A program made the translations under genes and the position numbers. Below are positions 11,027 to 21,473 of a stretch of DNA of 64,000 bases, piece by piece. The stretch's first letter is position 1, and each line of letters opens with the position of its first letter. This DNA is from Caminibacter mediatlanticus TB-2 (lineage in GTDB: Bacteria; Campylobacterota; Campylobacteria; Campylobacterales; Nautiliaceae): contig NZ_CP040463.1 in assembly GCF_005843985.1 (NCBI RefSeq), forward strand, positions 32,501 to 96,500. The letters are read 5' to 3'. The notes under the pieces are model-generated. The model ran no database searches. It was not told the origin of the DNA and worked only from the letters and a program-made list of their open reading frames with translations.

Positions 11027-12220
11027 TTGAAATATAAATATATTGCTTTTAATAAAGATGGTAAAAAAGTAAAAGGAATTATAGAAGCTAATGACTTAAA
11101 AGAAGCAAAAAATATACTTAGAGATAAGACAATTTTATCAATTAAAGAGACAAAAAGTTTTGAGATTAATTTATCCTCAAAAATATCTAAAAATGAACTT
11201 TATAAACTTTTTAATACATTAGGAATTTATCTCAAATCCTCTATTCCAATTATTACAGCTATAAAACTCACTAAAAATCAGGCTACCTCAAAAAAAGTTA
11301 TTAAATTTTTAGACTATTTAGAAAAAGAGATAAAAGAAGGAAAAAGTTTTTTTAATGCCTTATCTTCTCAAAAAATATTAAAAATACCAAATTATGTAAT
11401 AAGCGCAATTAAAGTAGCTGAAAATAGCGGCAAGCTTGATATAGTATTAATTGAAATGGCTAAATTTTTAAAAAATGAAGAAAAATTAGCAAAAAAAACA
11501 ACCCAAGCACTAATTTATCCAACTTTTATTCTAATTGTAGCAATTGTAATGATTTCTTTTATGCTAACAAGCGTAGTTCCAAAAATTGTAAAAGTTTTTG
11601 AAAACTTAAATCAAAAACTCCCAAACATTACAATATTTGTAATAAATACAGGAAATTTTTTAAAAAATAACTATATTCAAATTACTATTATTCTCTTTAT
11701 AATAACTTTTGTTTTTTTATTTCTTTATAAAAAAAGTAAAAAATTTAAATTATTAGTTGATTCTTTATTATTAAAAATACCAGTAATAAATAAAATAATA
11801 CTCTCATCATCTCTTGGAAAATTTAGTTATTTAACATATACACTTACAAGCTCAGGAGTTACTTTTGTAAATGCATTAAATTTATCAATAAATACATTTA
11901 ATAATGAAAAATTAAAAGAGATTTTTAATAAAGCCTTTGAAGAAGTTGTTGAAGGTAAAAAATTATCTATCTCTTTAAAAAAAGCAGGTTTTATTTACGA
12001 TAAATCTTTTTTGCAAGCATTAGCATTAGCAGAAGAAACAAGCGAAGTTGATAATATTTTAAAAAATTTAAGTGAATTGTATTTTGAAGAAAATAAAATG
12101 AGAATAAATACTCTTTTAAGTTTGCTTGAACCAGCTTTAATGATTATTGTAGGAGGAGTTATTGGATTTATTGTAACGGCTCTGCTTCTTCCAATTTTTA
12201 GCATTAACCTAATGAAATGA
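11027..12220 (+). CDS. gspF: Type II secretion inner-membrane protein GspF
   Basis: GspF is the polytopic platform protein that organises pseudopilin insertion. The 397-residue product has two GspF cytoplasmic domains, each followed by membrane helices: helices near 165-190, 218-237 and 366-392. Conserved features include the N-terminal YKYIAFNKDGKKVKGIIEA and the second-domain LSISLKKAG. Translation starts at TTG directly after the gspE stop. It is the last gene of the secretion cluster; no prepilin peptidase (gspO) or pilotin is found in the window. Confidence 0.93.
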   Translation: MKYKYIAFNKDGKKVKGIIEANDLKEAKNILRDKTILSIKETKSFEINLSSKISKNELYKLFNTLGIYLKSSIPIITAIKLTKNQATSKKVIKFLDYLEKEIKEGKSFFNALSSQKILKIPNYVISAIKVAENSGKLDIVLIEMAKFLKNEEKLAKKTTQALIYPTFILIVAIVMISFMLTSVVPKIVKVFENLNQKLPNITIFVINTGNFLKNNYIQITIILFIITFVFLFLYKKSKKFKLLVDSLLLKIPVINKIILSSSLGKFSYLTYTLTSSGVTFVNALNLSINTFNNEKLKEIFNKAFEEVVEGKKLSISLKKAGFIYDKSFLQALALAEETSEVDNILKNLSELYFEENKMRINTLLSLLEPALMIIVGGVIGFIVTALLLPIFSINLMK

Positions 12221-12245: not shown

Positions 12246-13070
12246 TTGCATCTTCCCCAAAAAATAGAAGCCCTAAGAAAAGCTACAATATTTAACAAAA
12301 AAACAAGAGAATATGCTCTTAATGAACTAAAAAAAGATAAAAGATATCTTCAAAAATGTTTAAACGAAGATATTCACGAACATATAATTTTTAGAAACTA
12401 TCAAGACTATTTAATCTCAACAGTGCTTGAAAGAGATGGAGTAATGAAAAGATTAAAACCTATACCATCTCAAAAAGTTTTTAATTCAAAAGAATTTTTA
12501 AAGTTTTATATTGAGGATTTAGAAAAAACTCCAAATGAATTTAAAGTAAAAAAAATAGGTGTGTTTGATACAGAAACAACCGACATTTACGGATATATAA
12601 TCTCTTATGCATTTGTTATTCAAGATATGTATAGTTTAGAAACAAAAGAAATTTATGAGCTTCTAAATCCAAAAGCAAAAATCTCTGAGGAAGCTTATGA
12701 AGTGCATAAAATAAAACAAGAAGATTTAGAAGATAAACCTACATTTGAAGAAAAAAAAGAGTACATTTTAGATTTATTTAATAGTGTTGATATAATTGTA
12801 GGTCATAATGTATTTTTTGACTTTGGAGTTTTAAAAAGAGAACTTGAAAGAGCAAAACATTTCCCAAATATTATAGAAGTACCAATTTTTGATACTATGT
12901 TTTATAGCTGGGATATTGTTGTTTTAGATAAGAAAAAACAACCTCGTCTTGAAGAAGCAGTAGCCTTTTTCTTAGGCCCTCAAAAAGCTCAGTATCACAA
13001 TGCATTAGAAGATGTTAAAATGACTCTAAAAGTATTTAACAAATTACTTGAAGAAGGTAAAAAATTATAA
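12246..13070 (+). CDS. DEDDh 3'-5' exonuclease, DnaQ-like
   Basis: A 274-residue protein with an RNase T/DnaQ-type exonuclease domain at about 103-270. The metal and catalytic residues are visible: D108 and E110 in VFDTET, D192 in the HNVFFDF motif, H251 and D256 in HNALED. The first 100 residues form a helical, Lys-rich extension with no recognised domain. It may be the proofreading subunit of DNA polymerase III or a paralogous repair exonuclease; the N-terminal extension argues for the latter. TTG start behind AAAAGGA. The stop region overlaps the convergent GDPD gene by 6 bp. Confidence 0.85.
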   Translation: MHLPQKIEALRKATIFNKKTREYALNELKKDKRYLQKCLNEDIHEHIIFRNYQDYLISTVLERDGVMKRLKPIPSQKVFNSKEFLKFYIEDLEKTPNEFKVKKIGVFDTETTDIYGYIISYAFVIQDMYSLETKEIYELLNPKAKISEEAYEVHKIKQEDLEDKPTFEEKKEYILDLFNSVDIIVGHNVFFDFGVLKRELERAKHFPNIIEVPIFDTMFYSWDIVVLDKKKQPRLEEAVAFFLGPQKAQYHNALEDVKMTLKVFNKLLEEGKKL

Positions 13071-13802
13071 TATATCACTAAAAATTCCTTTAACACCATT
13101 TTTAAATAAATTTTCAATCTCTTTTTTATCATTTACAGTATAAACATTTGTAACTATATCTTTTTCTAAGAGTTTTAATGTTAAATTTTTTGAGAAGTTT
13201 TCTTTATTTATATGAAACGCATCTAAATTGTATTTTAAGATTTCTTTTAAAGTTACTTTTTTATCAAAAAGGGCTGCTTTATAAAAGCCTTTTAATTCTT
13301 TAATATATTCTAAACTAAATGAAGAGATAATTACTTGGTCTTTTAATTTAAATTTTACAACTCTTTTTTTTATATCTTCTAAAATATTTTTTGAATAAGG
13401 CATTTTAATTTCTAAATTAGCAAAAATATTATTATCTGTTATAAAACTAAGTACCTCATCTAAACTTGGAATTGCTTCTTTTTTTAAACTATTTAAAAAT
13501 CTATAATCTAAATCTTCATTAAACGGATTTGACTTAATAAACCAAGAAACATTATCTAATTTTTTAACTTCTTCAAAACTTAAATCTGAAATTTTAATTT
13601 TTTTGTTTATATTTGTTTTTTTATTTATGTAAGTATCATGAAAAATAACAGGCTCAAAATCTTTTGTATATTGAACATCAAACTCTATCATATCAAAATG
13701 TTTTATTGCTTTTTCAAATGCAATTAGAGTATTTTCTGGATATAAACTTCTAAGACCTCGATGAGCTATTAAAACATGCTCTTTTTTAAAAACCTCAAAC
13801 AT
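13065..13802 (-). CDS. Glycerophosphodiester phosphodiesterase
   Basis: This enzyme hydrolyses glycerophosphodiesters from lipid turnover to glycerol 3-phosphate and an alcohol. The 245-residue protein is a single GDPD TIM-barrel: H14-R15 in LIAHRG, the PENTLIAFEKA segment, E40 and D42 in IEFDVQ, and H55 in VIFHD are the catalytic and metal-binding residues. There is no signal peptide, so it is a cytoplasmic UgpQ-type enzyme. It is divergent from uppP and converges with, and overlaps, the exonuclease gene. Confidence 0.92.
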   Translation of the reverse strand: MFEVFKKEHVLIAHRGLRSLYPENTLIAFEKAIKHFDMIEFDVQYTKDFEPVIFHDTYINKKTNINKKIKISDLSFEEVKKLDNVSWFIKSNPFNEDLDYRFLNSLKKEAIPSLDEVLSFITDNNIFANLEIKMPYSKNILEDIKKRVVKFKLKDQVIISSFSLEYIKELKGFYKAALFDKKVTLKEILKYNLDAFHINKENFSKNLTLKLLEKDIVTNVYTVNDKKEIENLFKNGVKGIFSDIL

Positions 13803-13856
13803 TTTTTTAACCTTTTATAATATAATTCTTTTTATATTTTACAATAAAGGACATCA
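13803..13856. promoter_or_regulatory. Divergent promoter region between GDPD and uppP
   Basis: A 54-bp gap that must serve both genes. On the plus strand two TATAAT hexamers overlap by one base at 13816-13821 and 13821-13826, and TATATT follows at 13833. An AAAGG ribosome site precedes uppP and AAAAGG precedes the GDPD gene. Which hexamer is used cannot be decided by eye. Confidence 0.45.
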
Positions 13857-14642
13857 ATGACAATAATAGATAGCATTATTTTAGGAATAGTTGAGGGAAT
13901 TACTGAGTTTTTACCAATTAGCTCAACTGCTCATATGATAATTGTAAGTACTCTTCTTGGACTAAAACAAACTATGCAAAATGTTGCTTTTGAAGTAATT
14001 ATTCAACTTGGAGCGACTCTTGCTATTGTATTTATTTATCTTGATAAAATTAATTTTAAAGAAATAGACCTTTGGAAAAAGGTAATTTTAGCGTTTTTAC
14101 CACTTGCAATTGTTGGATTTTTATTTAGACATCAAATAAAAGAATTTTTTACAATTACAACAGTTGCTTGGATGTTTATAATTGGTGGGATTGTATTTTT
14201 TATTGTTGAAAAATTTTATAGTGAAGAAAAAGCCAAAATAAATGAAGTTGAAAAAGTTAGCTTAAAACAAGCATTTATTATAGGTATTTTTCAAGTTTTT
14301 GCTTTAATTCCAGGCACAAGCAGAAGTGGGGCTACAATAGTTGGAGGAATGTTAAGTGGACTTAGTAGAAAAACAGCTGCTGATTTTAGCTTTTTACTTG
14401 CAATTCCTACTATGTTTGCAGCAAGTGGATATGAGATGGTTAAAAATTTAGATACTTTTAAAGATTCTAATTTAATTGTTTTAGCAGTGGGATTTATTGT
14501 AAGTTTTATTAGCTGTTATATTGCAGTTAAATGGTTTTTAAACTTTGTAAAAAAATATACATTAATACCTTTTGGTATTTATAGAATTATTTTTGGAATT
14601 ATTCTTTTGTATTTAGTAAATCAAGGTATTATAAATGCGTAA
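13857..14642 (+). CDS. uppP: Undecaprenyl-diphosphatase UppP (BacA)
   Basis: UppP recycles undecaprenyl pyrophosphate to the monophosphate lipid carrier used for peptidoglycan and other envelope polymers. The 261-residue integral membrane protein has both signatures: E13/E17 in the [11 protein letters not shown] motif and PGTSRSG at 152-158. It has about eight membrane helices and normal length. It is the first gene of the rightward envelope cluster and overlaps the aquaporin gene by 8 bp. Confidence 0.96.
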
Positions 14643-15312
14643 AGAGTATATTGCTGAATTTTTAGGGTCATATATTTTAGTTTTTTCAGGATGTTTAGCT
14701 ATTGTAGTTGATACTTTATTTAATAATTTAGGAAGTATAGGAGTTTCACTTGTTTTTGGATTAGTTATAGTAGCTTTAATATATGCATTTGGCCACATAA
14801 GTGGGGCTCATTTTAATCCTGCTGTTACTATATCTTTTGCATTAATGAAAGAGTTTGATAAAAAAGAAGCAGTTAAATATATTTTTGCTCAAATAAGTGG
14901 AGCAATATTTGCGAGTTTCACAATATACCTATTAGTTATAGAGTATAACAAAAGTATGAGTGAATTAAAATATTTAGGTTCCACTTTGCCATCTGGAAGT
15001 TTGATACAATCATTTATACTTGAATTTATTCTAACATTTATTTTAATGATTGTTATTTATACAAGTGCTATCCATGGAAAAGCAATAAAAAGTTTTGCTG
15101 GAATTGCAATTGGATTTACTGTTGGAATAGAAGCTATGATCGGTGGTGCTATTAGTGGTGCAAGTATGAACCCTGCAAGAAGTATAGGTCCTGCTGTTGT
15201 TTCAGGAAACCTTGATAGTTTATGGCTTTATATTGTTGCATCTATTTTAGGGGCTATTGTAGCTGGAGTTGTATTTATAAATTTTATGAAATGTAAAGGA
15301 AGCTGTGAATAA
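14635..15312 (+). CDS. Aquaporin (MIP family channel)
   Basis: A 225-residue, six-helix MIP channel. The two half-helices carry NPA motifs at 61-63 (AHFNPAVT) and 179-181 (SMNPARS), the second followed by the selectivity-filter Arg182. The absence of the extended glycerol-facilitator loops and the short length favour a water-type channel (AqpZ/AqpM-like) over GlpF, but selectivity cannot be settled by reading. It is probably co-transcribed with uppP. Confidence 0.9.
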
Positions 15313-15338
15313 CAGTTTAATAACATTACTTCTTTTTT

Positions 15339-15364
15339 CTTTTTTGTAAACTTACATAAAAAAG
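15339..15364. other. Imperfect inverted repeat upstream of LpxH-like gene
   Basis: CTTTTTT at 15339-15345 pairs with AAAAAAG at 15358-15364, and the inner GTA pairs with TAC, with a 2-nt bulge. It is not a standard terminator because no U-run follows on the plus strand. It ends eight bases before the ATG of the next gene and could affect its translation; it may also be chance in AT-rich DNA. Confidence 0.3.
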
Positions 15365-15371
15365 TAGACAT

Positions 15372-16109
15372 ATGAAGTATAGGTCAATCTTTATTTCGGA
15401 TATACATTTAGGAATAAGATACTCACAAACAGACAAACTTCTTCAATTTTTTAGAGAAAACGAATCAGAATATTTATATTTAGTTGGTGATATAATTGAT
15501 GGATGGGCAATAAAAAGAAAATTCTATTGGCCGCAAACTCACTCAGATGTTATTCAAAAAATACTTAGAAAAGCCAGAAAAAATACAAAAGTAATCTATG
15601 TAACAGGCAATCATGATGAATTTATTAGACCTTTTGTGCCTATCTTACTTGGAAACAATATAGAAATTGTAAATGAAGCAACTCATATTGGAATTGATGG
15701 AAATAGGTATCTTGTGACTCATGGAGATTTTTTTGACTCAATCACAATGACAAAAAAATGGATAGCTCATCTTGGAGATTTAGGATATGATTTTTTACTT
15801 TTTCTAAATCGCTACATCAATATGGCAAGACAAACGCTTGGAATTGGCAAGTATTGGTCAATTTCTAAATATGTAAAAGATAATGTAAAAAAATCTGTAA
15901 GTTTTATAACTGATTTTGAGACAATTTTGGCTAAATATGCAAGAGAAAATAATTATGATGGAGTTATATGCGGTCATATCCATAAAGCCGAATATAGAAT
16001 GATAGAAAATATAATTTATTTAAATTGTGGTGATTGGGTAGAAAACTGTACAGCAATTGTTGAAACAATGGAGGGTGAGTGGAAAATAATAGAAAACCTG
16101 AACAATTAA
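15372..16109 (+). CDS. LpxH-like calcineurin-type metallophosphoesterase
   Basis: A 245-residue COG2908-type metallophosphoesterase. The metal-site motifs are in order: SDIHLG (8-13), GDIIDG (about 39-44), GNHDE (about 78-82), THGDFFD (about 115-121) and GHIHKA (about 198-203). LpxH cleaves UDP-2,3-diacylglucosamine in lipid A synthesis, but Helicobacter and relatives are known to use the unrelated LpxJ for that step, so the role here is open. It overlaps the start of a glycosyltransferase gene by 31 bp, which suggests a shared envelope-lipid task. Confidence 0.85.
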   Translation: MKYRSIFISDIHLGIRYSQTDKLLQFFRENESEYLYLVGDIIDGWAIKRKFYWPQTHSDVIQKILRKARKNTKVIYVTGNHDEFIRPFVPILLGNNIEIVNEATHIGIDGNRYLVTHGDFFDSITMTKKWIAHLGDLGYDFLLFLNRYINMARQTLGIGKYWSISKYVKDNVKKSVSFITDFETILAKYARENNYDGVICGHIHKAEYRMIENIIYLNCGDWVENCTAIVETMEGEWKIIENLNN

Positions 16110-17869
16110 ATATACTTTTTACAATTGCATCTCTTGGACTTGGTCATGCTACAAGAACACTGCCTATAATAGAACATTTTAAAAACCAAGGTCATAAAAT
16201 CACAATACTATCATATGTAAAGGCATTAGAATTTTTAAAAGATGAATTATATGATAAAACAATAGAGTTTATCTCTTTGGAGGATTATCCAAAACTTGAA
16301 AGAGGAAAAGGATGGAAGTTTTATTATTATTTAATTGTTGATTTACTTAAAACTACAAAAATAATAAAAAAAGAAAAAAAGTTTTTAAAAGATAAAGAGT
16401 TTGATTTGATAATAAGTGATGGAAGATATGGTTTTAATTCAAAACATATACCATCTTTTCTAATTTCGCATCAAATTTCATTTATTCCACCAAAAGTTTT
16501 AATGCCTTTTAAGTTTATTAGTGATATTGGAAATTTAATTCATTTTAGAAAATTTCATAAGGTTTTTATTCCAGATTTTAAAGAAAAAGAATTTAATTTA
16601 GCAGGAAAACTTTCACATAATATTTTACTTAAATTTTTTAATTATGAATTTGTTGGTATTTTATCATCATATAAACAATTTAATACAGATAAAAAAATAG
16701 ATTATCTTTTTGTAATAAGTGGATATTTAGACGAACATAAAGATAGTTTCGTATCAAGACTTATAAATCAAGCAAAAAACATTGAAGGCAAAAAAGTTTT
16801 TATTTTAGGTGATACTTCAAAAAAAGAGGTTGTTAATTTAGAAAACAATATTACTATATATCCAATTGCCACATCAAATTTAAGAAAAGAGCTTTTTAAT
16901 GCTGCTAATGTTATTATTTCACGCACTGGTTATACTACAATTATGGATTTAATAGAAATGAATAAAAAAGGAATTTTATTCCCTACACCAAATCAAACCG
17001 AACAAGAATACTTAGCAAAATATCACTCTAAAAAAAATTGGTTTATAACAAACAAAAATGATAAAGATTTTGATTTAAAAGAGTTAATAAATAAACTTGA
17101 TAAGACAACACCTCATCCTAAAAATGAAAAAACAACTTATTCTATTAAAAAAATAGAAAAAATAGTAAATTATTATTTAGATGAAATCTTTTTTTCAATC
17201 ATAATTCCAGCATTCAATGAAGCAAAATATCTAAAAAATACACTTAATCATATAAAAAATCTAAACTATTCAAATTATGAGGTTATAATTGTAGAAAATG
17301 GCTCAAATGATAATACTTATGAAATTGCAAAAGAGTATGAAAATGAAAAAATCAAAGTTATTAAAAGCAAAAAAGGTGTATCAATTGCTAAAAATGAAGG
17401 AATTAAACATATAAATAGTAGTGATTACACAATCTTTTTAGATGCTGATACTATTTTAGAAAGAAATTTTTTAAAAGAGTTAAATTTGTTTTTGAAAGAA
17501 GAAAATTTTGCAATTGGTACAACCTCAATAAAACCGTATAATTCAAATTCAAAAATAGATAAGTTTTGGTATAAATTTTATGATATTTCACATAAAATAA
17601 CTCAAACATCTTACTCAATCCAAATTATTAACACAAGTCTATTAAATAAAGTTAAATTTGATGAAGAGTTAAACTTTTCAGAAGATATAAAATTTATTAA
17701 AGATGCAAAAAAATATGGAAAATTTTTCTTTTTTGAAACAAATAGTGTAGCTACTTCCACAAGAAGATTTAAAAAAGAGGGGTATATTAAAACACTTATT
17801 AAATGGACTTTTCAAGCAATACTTCCTGAATTTCTTAAAAAAAATAGTAATTATAATCCGGTTAGATGA
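16079..17869 (+). CDS. Two-domain glycosyltransferase: GT28/MurG-like plus GT2
   Basis: A 596-residue fusion. Residues about 9-365 are a GT-B enzyme of the MurG/MJ1255 type: glycine-rich LGLGHATR loop near 18-25, and the C-terminal donor-site segment SRTGYTT at 281-287 followed by PTPNQTEQEYLA. Residues about 372-596 are a GT-A family 2 domain with FSIIIPAFNEAKYL, VENGSNDNT and the metal-binding DAD at 455-457. It probably makes a membrane glycolipid with two sugars added, but substrates are unknown. The GTG start follows a GGAGGG site at 16070-16075. It overlaps both neighbours. Confidence 0.85.
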   Translation: MENNRKPEQLNILFTIASLGLGHATRTLPIIEHFKNQGHKITILSYVKALEFLKDELYDKTIEFISLEDYPKLERGKGWKFYYYLIVDLLKTTKIIKKEKKFLKDKEFDLIISDGRYGFNSKHIPSFLISHQISFIPPKVLMPFKFISDIGNLIHFRKFHKVFIPDFKEKEFNLAGKLSHNILLKFFNYEFVGILSSYKQFNTDKKIDYLFVISGYLDEHKDSFVSRLINQAKNIEGKKVFILGDTSKKEVVNLENNITIYPIATSNLRKELFNAANVIISRTGYTTIMDLIEMNKKGILFPTPNQTEQEYLAKYHSKKNWFITNKNDKDFDLKELINKLDKTTPHPKNEKTTYSIKKIEKIVNYYLDEIFFSIIIPAFNEAKYLKNTLNHIKNLNYSNYEVIIVENGSNDNTYEIAKEYENEKIKVIKSKKGVSIAKNEGIKHINSSDYTIFLDADTILERNFLKELNLFLKEENFAIGTTSIKPYNSNSKIDKFWYKFYDISHKITQTSYSIQIINTSLLNKVKFDEELNFSEDIKFIKDAKKYGKFFFFETNSVATSTRRFKKEGYIKTLIKWTFQAILPEFLKKNSNYNPVR

Positions 17870-18486
17870 ATATATTAAATGAATTTATAAATTTTCTCTC
17901 TCATCATCAAGATATTGTATATTTTATTCTATTTTTAGGAAGTATGTTTGAGACTATTATTGGCTTTTCTTTTATAGTATATGGTGAGATTTTTTTCTTA
18001 GCCGGAAGTATTATGGCTGGAAGTGGTATTTTAGATATCACAAAAGTGATAATTGCTTTATATCTTGGTGCAATAATTGGAGACAATATAAGTTATTTTA
18101 TTGGTAGAAAATTTGGTAAAAACATTTACTACTCTCTTAGGAAGATAAAACTTCTACAAAAATATATAAACAAAAAAAATTATGTAAAAAGTGCAAGATA
18201 TTTACGAAAAAAAGGTGCTTTAAGTCTATTTTTTGCAAGATTGCTTGGACCACTTTCATGGATAATGCCTTTTATTGCAGGTGTATATAAAATTGATTAT
18301 AAAAAATTTTTAATATTCAACACACTTGGTATAATAGCAGGAATTGGACAGTTTATAATTGTAGGATATCTATTTGGAATGCATTATAAAGAGATTTTAA
18401 AAACAATTGAGACATATTTTTGGGTAATTATTATTTTTATACTTATTTTTTTTATGTTTAAAAAATTTATTAGGATTAAAAAATGA
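17866..18486 (+). CDS. DedA family membrane protein
   Basis: A 206-residue DedA/VTT-domain protein. Two re-entrant regions are visible, the first around FETIIGFSFIVYGEIFFLAGSIM and the second around FARLLGPLSWIMPFIAGV, with GDNISYFIGRKFGK between them. DedA proteins are implicated in flipping phospholipids and undecaprenyl phosphate and in proton-dependent membrane homeostasis. Overlap of 4 bp with both the glycosyltransferase and the patatin genes suggests it acts with them, for example by translocating a lipid intermediate (inference). Confidence 0.9.
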   Translation: MNILNEFINFLSHHQDIVYFILFLGSMFETIIGFSFIVYGEIFFLAGSIMAGSGILDITKVIIALYLGAIIGDNISYFIGRKFGKNIYYSLRKIKLLQKYINKKNYVKSARYLRKKGALSLFFARLLGPLSWIMPFIAGVYKIDYKKFLIFNTLGIIAGIGQFIIVGYLFGMHYKEILKTIETYFWVIIIFILIFFMFKKFIRIKK

Positions 18487-19205
18487 AACTATCAATTGCT
18501 CTATCTGGTGGAGCTGCAAGAGGAGTTTTTCATCTTGGATTTTTGGATGTTTTATTAAAAGAAGGTGTTGAAATAAAAGAAATTAGCGGAAGTAGTGCTG
18601 GTGCAATAGTTGCTGGGGCAATTGCATGTAAAATTCCTCTAAAAGATATTTTTGAAATAGTAAAATCAAAAGAATTTAAAAGTATATTCAAATTTAGCTT
18701 AAAAACTGGTCTTTTTAAAATAGATTTAAACTCAACAATACTTGATAAATTTTTTTTATATGATGATTTAAGTAAAAGCGATATTCCTCTTTTTATATGT
18801 GTAACAGATTTTCAAGAAGAAAAAGCTCTCTATCTCAATGCAGGAGACCCTAAAAAAATAATACCTGCTTCTTGTGCAATTTATCCATTTTTTGAGCCAA
18901 TTGTTTATAAAGACAAAATTTTAGTTGATGGGGGATATAAAGACAATCTTCCATCATCTCCGCTAAATGGTAATATTTTAGGAATTAATGTAGTGCCAAA
19001 TTGTAAAATAGAAAAGCTCACGCATAAAAATATAATAATCAAAGTTTCACAAATGTTAATTAGAAACACTATTAATTATGAAAAAATAAAATATTTAATT
19101 GAACCCCAAGAAATCTGCAAGATAAGAGCTTTTTCTTTTAATGATTTAGACGAATGCTACGGACTTGGCAAAAAATATGCTTTTAATTGGCTTAGACAAT
19201 TATAA
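18483..19205 (+). CDS. Patatin-like phospholipase
   Basis: A 240-residue patatin-family acyl hydrolase of the RssA type. The oxyanion-hole loop SGGAARG is at 8-14, the nucleophile elbow GSSAG at 36-40 (Ser38), and the catalytic Asp149 lies in VDGGYKDN. No signal peptide is seen, so it acts on the cytoplasmic face. It is the last gene of the envelope cluster, with its ATG overlapping the DedA stop. Substrate is unknown; phospholipid or glycolipid deacylation are both possible. Confidence 0.9.
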   Translation: MKLSIALSGGAARGVFHLGFLDVLLKEGVEIKEISGSSAGAIVAGAIACKIPLKDIFEIVKSKEFKSIFKFSLKTGLFKIDLNSTILDKFFLYDDLSKSDIPLFICVTDFQEEKALYLNAGDPKKIIPASCAIYPFFEPIVYKDKILVDGGYKDNLPSSPLNGNILGINVVPNCKIEKLTHKNIIIKVSQMLIRNTINYEKIKYLIEPQEICKIRAFSFNDLDECYGLGKKYAFNWLRQL

Positions 19206-19274
19206 ATAAAAGTTAATAAAATCATAAAAATTAATTTTAATTAATAATTTTTTTCTTTTAATAATCTTTTATGT

Positions 19275-19280
19275 TATACT
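19275..19280 (+). promoter_or_regulatory. -10 box of katG promoter
   Basis: TATACT preceded by TGT in the 117-bp gap between the patatin gene and katG. It gives a leader of about 35 nt that ends in AAAAGGA. The sequence upstream is almost pure A/T, with a short ATTAAT-TTTA-ATTAAT dyad that is too AT-rich to call an operator. Confidence 0.55.
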
Positions 19281-19322
19281 TTTACAGAGCCTTTGCTCAT
19301 CTAAAATAAAAAAGGAAAAAAA

Positions 19323-21473
19323 ATGAAATGTCCATTTACAAATGAAGCATTATCTCATACAACACTTGGTGGAGATATAAATGCAAAATGGTGGCCAGAA
19401 CAATTAAATTTAAGAATTCTTTATCAAAACCCACCAACACTAAAACCAACAGATGATTTTAGTTATAAAAAAGAGTTTGAAAAATTAGATGTAGAAGAAT
19501 TAAAAAAAGATTTAAAAAAACTTATGCGCTCATCTCAGGATTGGTGGCCTGCTGATTATGGCCATTATGGTCCACTTTTTATAAGACTCTCTTGGCATAG
19601 TGCTGGGACATATAGAGTATTTGATGGAAGAGGTGGAGGAAGCAATGGAAATCAAAGATTTGCACCATTAAATAGTTGGCCTGATAATATCAATCTTGAT
19701 AAAGCAAGAAGATTACTTTGGCCTATTAAACAAAAATATGGAAATAAAATATCTTGGGGTGATTTATTAGTTTTAGCTGGGACTGTGGCGCTTGAAGATA
19801 TGGGATTTAAACCATATGGATTTGCATTTGGGAGAGTTGATATTTGGGAGGCAGAGATAGATACATACTGGGGAGATGAAATGGAGTGGCTCTCAAATGA
19901 AAAAAGAGTTAAAGATGGAGAACTTCAAAAACCTCTTGCAGCAGACCATATGGGGCTTATTTATGTAAATCCAGAAGGACCGAATGGAGAACCTAATATT
20001 CTTGAAGCTGCAAAACAAATTAGAGAAAGTTTTAAAAGAATGGCCATGAATGATGAAGAGACTGTGGCATTAATTGCAGGAGGTCATACATTTGGTAAAA
20101 ACCATGGAGCTGCACCAACATCTCATTTAGGAAAAGAAGTTGAAGCAGCACCAATTGAAGAGCAAAACTTAGGATGGAAAAATAGTTATAAAAGTGGAAA
20201 AGGTCCTGATACTATTACAAGTGGGATTGAGGGAGCTTGGACACCAACTCCTACAAAATGGGATGATAGCTTTTTAAGAATTATGTTTAAGTATGATTGG
20301 AATTTAGTAAAAAGTCCAGCTGGTGCTTGGCAATGGGAAGCAGTAGATGTAGATGAAGAAGATATGGTCCCAGATGCTCATATACCAGGTAAAAAACATA
20401 AACCAATAATGCTAACAACTGATTTAGCTCTAAGAATGGATAGCGAATATAAAAAAATAGCAAAAAAATTTTTAGAAAATCCAAAATTATTAGAAGAAGC
20501 ATTTGCAAAAGCTTGGTTTAAATTAACTCATAGAGACCTTGGACCTAAATCAAGATATTTAGGCAACGATATAGGTGAAGATGATTTTATTTGGCAAGAC
20601 CCTATCCCAAAAAGTTATACAAGTATTAACGAAAAAGAAATAGAAACACTTAAAAAAGAGATTTTAGAAAAGTTATCTATTCAAGAAATTTTATATACAG
20701 TTTTTTCAGCAGTTTCTACATATAGAGACACAGATAAAAGAGGTGGATTAAATGGTGCAAGAATTAGATTAAAACCTCAAATTGATTGGGAGATAAATCA
20801 AGATAAAAGAGTTGCTAAAACAATAAAAACTCTTGAAAAAATCAAACCAGATAATATTACTTTTGCTGATTTACTTGCATTAAGTGGTATTGCAGCAATC
20901 GAAAAAGCAGCTAAAAATGCGGGAGTTGAAATAAATCTTGATTTTTATCCAGGAAGAGGTGATGCTACGCAAGAAGAAACTGATATAGAGTCATTTAATT
21001 ATTTAAAACCCATAGCAAATGGATTTTTAAACTATTTGCAAAATGGATGTGAAGAGCTAATTAGTGAAAGGGCTTTAATAGATTTAGCAAATAAATTAAC
21101 ATTAACAGTCCCTGAAATGACAGTCTTAATAGGAGGACTTAGAACGCTTGGAATTAACTATAACGACACACCTTATGGAAGATTTAGTGAAGATGAAAAT
21201 AGACTTGATAATGAGTTTTTTACAAAACTTCTTGATATGAATATTGAATGGAAACCAAAAAACAACCAAGTATTCGAAGGATTTGATAGAAAAACTAATA
21301 AAAAGGTATATGAAGCTACAAGAGTTGATTTAATATTTGGTGCTAACTCACAACTGAGAGCTCAAAGTGAATTTTATGCACAAAATGATAATAAAGAAAA
21401 ATTCATTAAAGACTTCGCAAAAGCTTTCAATAAGCTCCTAAATATCGATAGATTCGATATTTTTTGGAGATAA
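19323..21473 (+). CDS. katG: Catalase-peroxidase KatG
   Basis: KatG is a cytoplasmic haem enzyme that removes hydrogen peroxide by catalase and peroxidase reactions. The 716-residue protein is full length. Distal residues R88, W91 and H92 lie in IRLSWHSAGTYR; the family's Trp-Tyr-Met crosslink can be assigned to W91, Y214 (LIYVNPEGPNG) and M240; the proximal haem ligand is H255 in GGHTFGK. The C-terminal pseudo-peroxidase repeat is intact. It stands alone, with its own promoter and two hairpins at its end. Campylobacter and Helicobacter typically use KatA, so KatG marks a different lineage. Confidence 0.97.
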   Translation: MKCPFTNEALSHTTLGGDINAKWWPEQLNLRILYQNPPTLKPTDDFSYKKEFEKLDVEELKKDLKKLMRSSQDWWPADYGHYGPLFIRLSWHSAGTYRVFDGRGGGSNGNQRFAPLNSWPDNINLDKARRLLWPIKQKYGNKISWGDLLVLAGTVALEDMGFKPYGFAFGRVDIWEAEIDTYWGDEMEWLSNEKRVKDGELQKPLAADHMGLIYVNPEGPNGEPNILEAAKQIRESFKRMAMNDEETVALIAGGHTFGKNHGAAPTSHLGKEVEAAPIEEQNLGWKNSYKSGKGPDTITSGIEGAWTPTPTKWDDSFLRIMFKYDWNLVKSPAGAWQWEAVDVDEEDMVPDAHIPGKKHKPIMLTTDLALRMDSEYKKIAKKFLENPKLLEEAFAKAWFKLTHRDLGPKSRYLGNDIGEDDFIWQDPIPKSYTSINEKEIETLKKEILEKLSIQEILYTVFSAVSTYRDTDKRGGLNGARIRLKPQIDWEINQDKRVAKTIKTLEKIKPDNITFADLLALSGIAAIEKAAKNAGVEINLDFYPGRGDATQEETDIESFNYLKPIANGFLNYLQNGCEELISERALIDLANKLTLTVPEMTVLIGGLRTLGINYNDTPYGRFSEDENRLDNEFFTKLLDMNIEWKPKNNQVFEGFDRKTNKKVYEATRVDLIFGANSQLRAQSEFYAQNDNKEKFIKDFAKAFNKLLNIDRFDIFWR

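Follow-up and report, generated by a model that had tools for sequence, protein, structure and literature searches.

A PlcP-type gene cluster in Caminibacter mediatlanticus is a candidate membrane lipid remodeling operon

Which lipid do six adjacent or overlapping genes of Caminibacter mediatlanticus TB-2 act on, and do all six belong to one pathway? These genes lie in the window analyzed here, a stretch of 64,000 nucleotides (positions 32501-96500 of a genome of one contig, 1,685,887 bases). The original prediction, made from the letters alone, proposed an undescribed envelope glycolipid pathway in which an LpxH-like phosphatase removes a phosphate from a nucleotide-lipid. All six reading frames are open and at the predicted positions (13857-19205 in the window), and matches to Pfam and NCBIfam profiles back every family assignment:

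13857-14642, + strand: undecaprenyl-diphosphatase UppP (BacA/UppP, E 1.3e-81; NF001390, 296 bits, cut-off 260)
14635-15312, + strand: aquaporin Z-like channel (MIP, E 6.4e-54; TIGR00861, 177 bits, cut-off 171)
15309-15325, - strand: PHO-box-like direct repeat TGTTATT-AAAC-TGTTATT (perfect 7-base repeat, period 11)
15372-16109, + strand: calcineurin-like phosphoesterase of the PlcP (LpxH2) family, predicted phospholipase C (Metallophos, E 2e-15)
16079-17869, + strand: two-domain glycosyltransferase, GT (GT2, E 3.1e-29, and a GT28_C/GT1_3 half)
17866-18486, + strand: DedA/VTT membrane protein, predicted lipid transporter or flippase (VTT_dom, E 1.4e-19)
18483-19205, + strand: patatin-type lipid acyl hydrolase (Patatin, E 5.2e-23)

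The phosphoesterase, GT, DedA, and patatin genes overlap by 31 (16079-16109), 4, and 4 bases, respectively, and look co-transcribed, as had been proposed. Upstream, the UppP and aquaporin genes share 8 bases, with a gap of 59 bases between aquaporin and the phosphoesterase, and no terminator-like site was found within 13700-19400. Neither UppP nor aquaporin had a match beside the PlcP gene in the neighborhoods of relatives that we compared, and these two genes, which the original prediction had included, are probably not part of the lipid system. A GDPD-family glycerophosphodiester phosphodiesterase, divergent from UppP (13065-13802, - strand), could act on phospholipid deacylated by patatin.

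By sequence, the phosphoesterase is a member of the PlcP (or "LpxH2") family. It is 48.1% identical to Sinorhizobium meliloti PlcP and 50.9% identical to Pseudomonas aeruginosa PlcP, making it as close to these two proven PlcPs as they are to each other (48.1%). On a profile of proteobacterial PlcP proteins, the window enzyme scored 340 bits, compared with 34 for Escherichia coli LpxH and 28 for a second LpxH-like protein of this genome. All five metallophosphoesterase blocks are complete (DIHLG, GDIIDGW, GNHDE, THGD, and GHIH), including GNHD and GD-x-x-DGW. The S. meliloti match (locus L082) adjoins the genes for an AHL synthase and its LuxR regulator, and by these neighbors we take it to be SMc00171/plcP. 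The P. aeruginosa match (locus L084) has its own glycosyltransferase gene next downstream, like PA3219-PA3218, which are plcP-agt1; mutants and lipidomics established that PA3219 acts as PlcP (PMC8528852). Because the window enzyme belongs to this family, its substrate is probably an ordinary phospholipid and not the nucleotide-lipid first envisaged.

Might the phosphoesterase nonetheless be the lipid A enzyme LpxH, its neighbors being incidental? The genome contains LpxC and therefore needs a UDP-diacylglucosamine hydrolase, and LpxI was not found in it. The window enzyme also shares with LpxH the calcineurin-like superfamily and its metal-binding blocks, the level at which the label "LpxH-like" holds. 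As LpxH proper it fails: similarity is weak (28.6% identity over 105 residues), the score on TIGR01854 is 39.2 bits against a cut-off of 190.35, and GNHD stands in place of GNRD, the third block of LpxH (PMC3087551). Moreover, P. aeruginosa lpxH2 failed to replace E. coli lpxH (PMC3087551). A tree of PlcP and LpxH was uninformative, its branches being very long and saturated. Distribution separates the window enzyme from the other LpxH-like protein, as the PlcP gene is patchily present, in about 31 of the 249 genomes (56 genera) that make up our sample of the phylum, versus 246 genomes and all 56 genera for the other LpxH-like protein (240 residues, C1:791032-791751). The latter is the likelier lipid A enzyme, and we regard an LpxH role for the window enzyme as very improbable.

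That the phosphoesterase is not devoted to lipid A had been part of the original prediction, and this idea survives, although the argument offered for it does not. Since LpxJ, a DUF374 acyltransferase acting late in the pathway, stands in for LpxM and not for LpxH (PMC6148475), the presence or absence of lpxJ is uninformative on LpxH. The suggested genome search for lpxJ returned no DUF374 match, despite accounts of LpxJ elsewhere in the phylum; this organism may achieve 3′ secondary acylation of lipid A by other means or lack it.

The N-terminal half of the GT is of the GT28/GT1 type (MJ1255/VC2487-like), a fold class with lipid-acceptor enzymes among its members, while the C-terminal half is of the GT2 type with DxD and ED motifs. 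Full-length relatives are rare: among all phylum genomes sampled, they were found, apart from this genome, in G223 and in G060, G263, G267, and G270 (one other genus). These proteins are 53-58% identical to the window GT, with invariant active-site residues in the three that were aligned. A scan of named genomes with the GT alignment, whose peptide patterns were poor, gave distant GT2 proteins only.

The DedA proteins linked to this GT form a subgroup in which the VTT domain is present and the second conserved arginine is replaced (LSW/ISW). As the remaining DedA proteins of these loci retain this arginine, its absence suggests that transport by the GT-linked subgroup may differ. In G223, a frameshift splits the GT-linked DedA gene between its two halves (L063:10996-11630). 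The patatin contains GGAARG, GSSAG, and DGG, and thus the GxSxG and DG[GA] motifs of the catalytic dyad, and has no apparent signal peptide. A second patatin of the genome (C1:427202-427720; L115:6202-7038), about 33% identical, lies near what appear by eye to be the genes for ribosomal proteins L21 and L27.

Comparison of neighborhoods revealed that the four-gene set consists of two modules, PlcP-patatin and GT-DedA, joined together. Patatin follows PlcP on the same strand for 24 of the 32 copies in the phylum (23 of 31 excluding the window), at a distance of no more than 36 bases in every paired copy except that of the window. In all five other GT-bearing genomes, the GT gene is followed by an overlapping or adjacent DedA gene, the product of which is mostly fused to LssY_C. 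No other sampled genome of the phylum joins the two pairs, making the four-gene order unique to this genome within the sample; the LpxH-like/GT/DedA/patatin set is thus not conserved as a whole, its halves occurring apart elsewhere.

Evidence that the modules belong together comes from their distribution. All three GT-bearing genomes in the 249-genome sample also carry PlcP, which itself occurs in only 31 of 249; the probability under random placement is approximately 0.002, with kinship ignored. In addition, PlcP homologs adjoin glycosyltransferases of unrelated types (GT4 in Pseudomonas, GT1_3 in Parabacteroides, and GT21 in Pannonibacter), and these genes, or polyphosphate genes, are the neighbors of PlcP outside the phylum.

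Some of the same neighborhoods fit a different acceptor for the GT. As the main rival reading, the GT-DedA module could serve a polyprenyl-phosphate carrier, in the decoration of LPS or lipid A, the carrier being recycled or flipped by DedA; the module would then have entered the PlcP-patatin operon by chance, the two sharing no pathway. Beyond GT-DedA lies a YdjC-type deacetylase in four of the five other GT-bearing genomes, joined in one case by an ArnT-like PMT protein, while PAP2 and a second DedA are found upstream; together with LssY_C, these neighbors would suit a polyprenyl-phosphate sugar pathway as well, and the gene set resembles carrier-linked sugar pathways such as the Francisella-type FlmF2-NaxD-FlmK. 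UppP is also nearby in the window. However, no YdjC protein was found in this genome, and by inspection the GT is unlike a membrane-anchored ArnC-type enzyme. Selection is suggested by the insertion between genes so tightly coupled, with overlaps of 31 and 4 bases; the GT and PlcP share genomes (3 of 3) also where they are not linked; and the pairing of PlcP with a glycosyltransferase recurs in other phyla. We therefore consider a carrier-linked role unlikely. The YdjC deacetylase and ArnT-like PMT genes lie at L108:1-2072, L063:7168-9091, and L110:4196-5483, where EI24 and a DedA-PAP2 pair are also encoded, on the opposite strand.

If the operon remodels phospholipids, is it controlled by phosphate? 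Among relatives, the PlcP-patatin pair lies between phnL/phnM/phnN/phnP-type genes and pstSCAB (G133), comes after phoH with an overlap (G122), and follows the ornithine lipid synthase gene olsF (G207 and G223; above the NCBIfam cut-off), which in G142 is near. Small proteins that resemble each other are encoded upstream of PlcP in G115 and G162; that of G115 is diacylglycerol kinase (dgkA), with a lysophospholipid acyltransferase gene ahead of it. A GT4 glycosyltransferase gene runs divergently from PlcP in G121 and G166.

Alignment of upstream regions yielded the pattern TGTWAY-N5-TGTWAY-N10-TANANT, in which the N10 spacing to the -10 element is constant before PlcP, olsF, phoH, and pstS in relatives. 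Within 504 kb of loci, this PHO-box promoter occurred 9 times exactly (0 expected) and 16 times with one mismatch (1.5 expected). It preceded 9 of 18 PlcP operons, a count that misses two more because their start codons were called too early, compared with 4 of 221 control genes. As the pattern derives partly from the regions counted, independent support comes from its occurrence before pstS, phoH, and olsF. The sites before olsF, phoH, pstS, and a gene for a PF04185 phosphoesterase are at L062:5270-7054, L070:848 and 11548-11580, L078:12037-12069, and L066:10633. This pattern suggests a Pho regulon motif common to the phylum. A double half-site without a fitting -10 element was also present 17-20 bases before ccoG in two related genomes (L067:2381 and L071:1599); this gene, for a cytochrome oxidase accessory protein, was identified in L067.

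The window differs from these relatives. No canonical Pho promoter precedes position 15372, the best candidate having mismatches at 5 of 16 positions. The exact repeat TGTWAYNNNNNTGTWAY occurs once in the window, at 15309-15325 on the - strand (0.23 expected), and was rejected as a Pho box, being reversed and lacking a -10 element at the N10 spacing of the relatives' promoters. The Campylobacter PHO consensus, GTTTCNAAAANGTTTC, is no more frequent in the window than chance predicts and is absent before the operon. The missing promoter would suit an operon that remodels lipids independently of phosphate, as a constitutive or heat- or stress-driven maker of glycolipid. We think this quite unlikely, as PlcP sits in an evident Pho regulon in relatives of the same family and the same phylum. 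Thus, phosphate control is likely for the family and may extend to the window operon. In Sulfurimonas lipidomes, ornithine lipids account for as much as 40%, and diacylglycerols devoid of head groups also occur (PMC9789136).

The reading that we favor, and hold to be probable, is that 15372-19205 is a membrane lipid remodeling operon of the PlcP type, converting phospholipid to glycolipid. We infer its substrates, sugar, order of steps, and the parts played by DedA and patatin as follows. A cytoplasmic phospholipase C of the PlcP family would cleave off phosphoethanolamine, phosphoglycerol, or similar head groups, leaving diacylglycerol. The GT would then add one or two sugars to produce a phosphorus-free glycoglycerolipid; two are possible because the enzyme has two catalytic domains, with the GT28-like and GT2 halves perhaps acting in turn. 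DedA may carry a lipid across the inner membrane, whether the glycolipid just made or a carrier lipid, and patatin may take acyl chains off phospholipids or lyso-lipids during turnover. That the four genes make a membrane glycolipid, as first proposed, is plausible. In a broader and more tentative version, for which the case is somewhat short of even, Campylobacterota possess a lipid replacement system of their own, under Pho control and built on PlcP-patatin, which has here been fused with GT-DedA to give diglycosyl-type lipids that are exported and acyl-trimmed.

Replacement of phospholipids through PlcP is a phosphorus-saving process known in alpha- and gammaproteobacteria and Bacteroidota. 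Like the PlcP-Agt systems of Sinorhizobium, Phaeobacter, SAR11, and P. aeruginosa, the window couples a PlcP-family gene to a glycosyltransferase gene, with a predicted route from phospholipid through diacylglycerol to glycoglycerolipid. In contrast to these systems, the window GT has GT28/GT1_3-type and GT2 domains and is not homologous to Agt (GT4), the operon includes DedA and patatin and lacks a Pho box at the expected place, and the phylum is different. In another arrangement, plcP is directly upstream of Pgt (GT21), to which the synthesis of di- and triglycosyl-diacylglycerols is attributed (PMC4796936). Here too PlcP directly precedes the glycosyltransferase gene, as in the PlcP-like/GT21 pair of Pannonibacter, but the window GT is not GT21, and only its C-terminal half is distantly GT2-like.

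The pathway is therefore not wholly undescribed, as had been supposed, but would be a variant of known PlcP-glycosyltransferase lipid remodeling. The new elements are the phylum, the union of PlcP and patatin in an operon, a two-domain GT accompanied by DedA, and the order in which the genes are fused; the literature that we searched contained no description of PlcP in Campylobacterota. Proteins of the PlcP family are commonly mis-annotated as 'UDP-2,3-diacylglucosamine diphosphatase', a label that our finding corrects. Members of Campylobacterota dominate vents and redoxclines, and for this phylum the finding supplies a defined set of genes to test, along with a promoter pattern and the two-domain glycosyltransferase.
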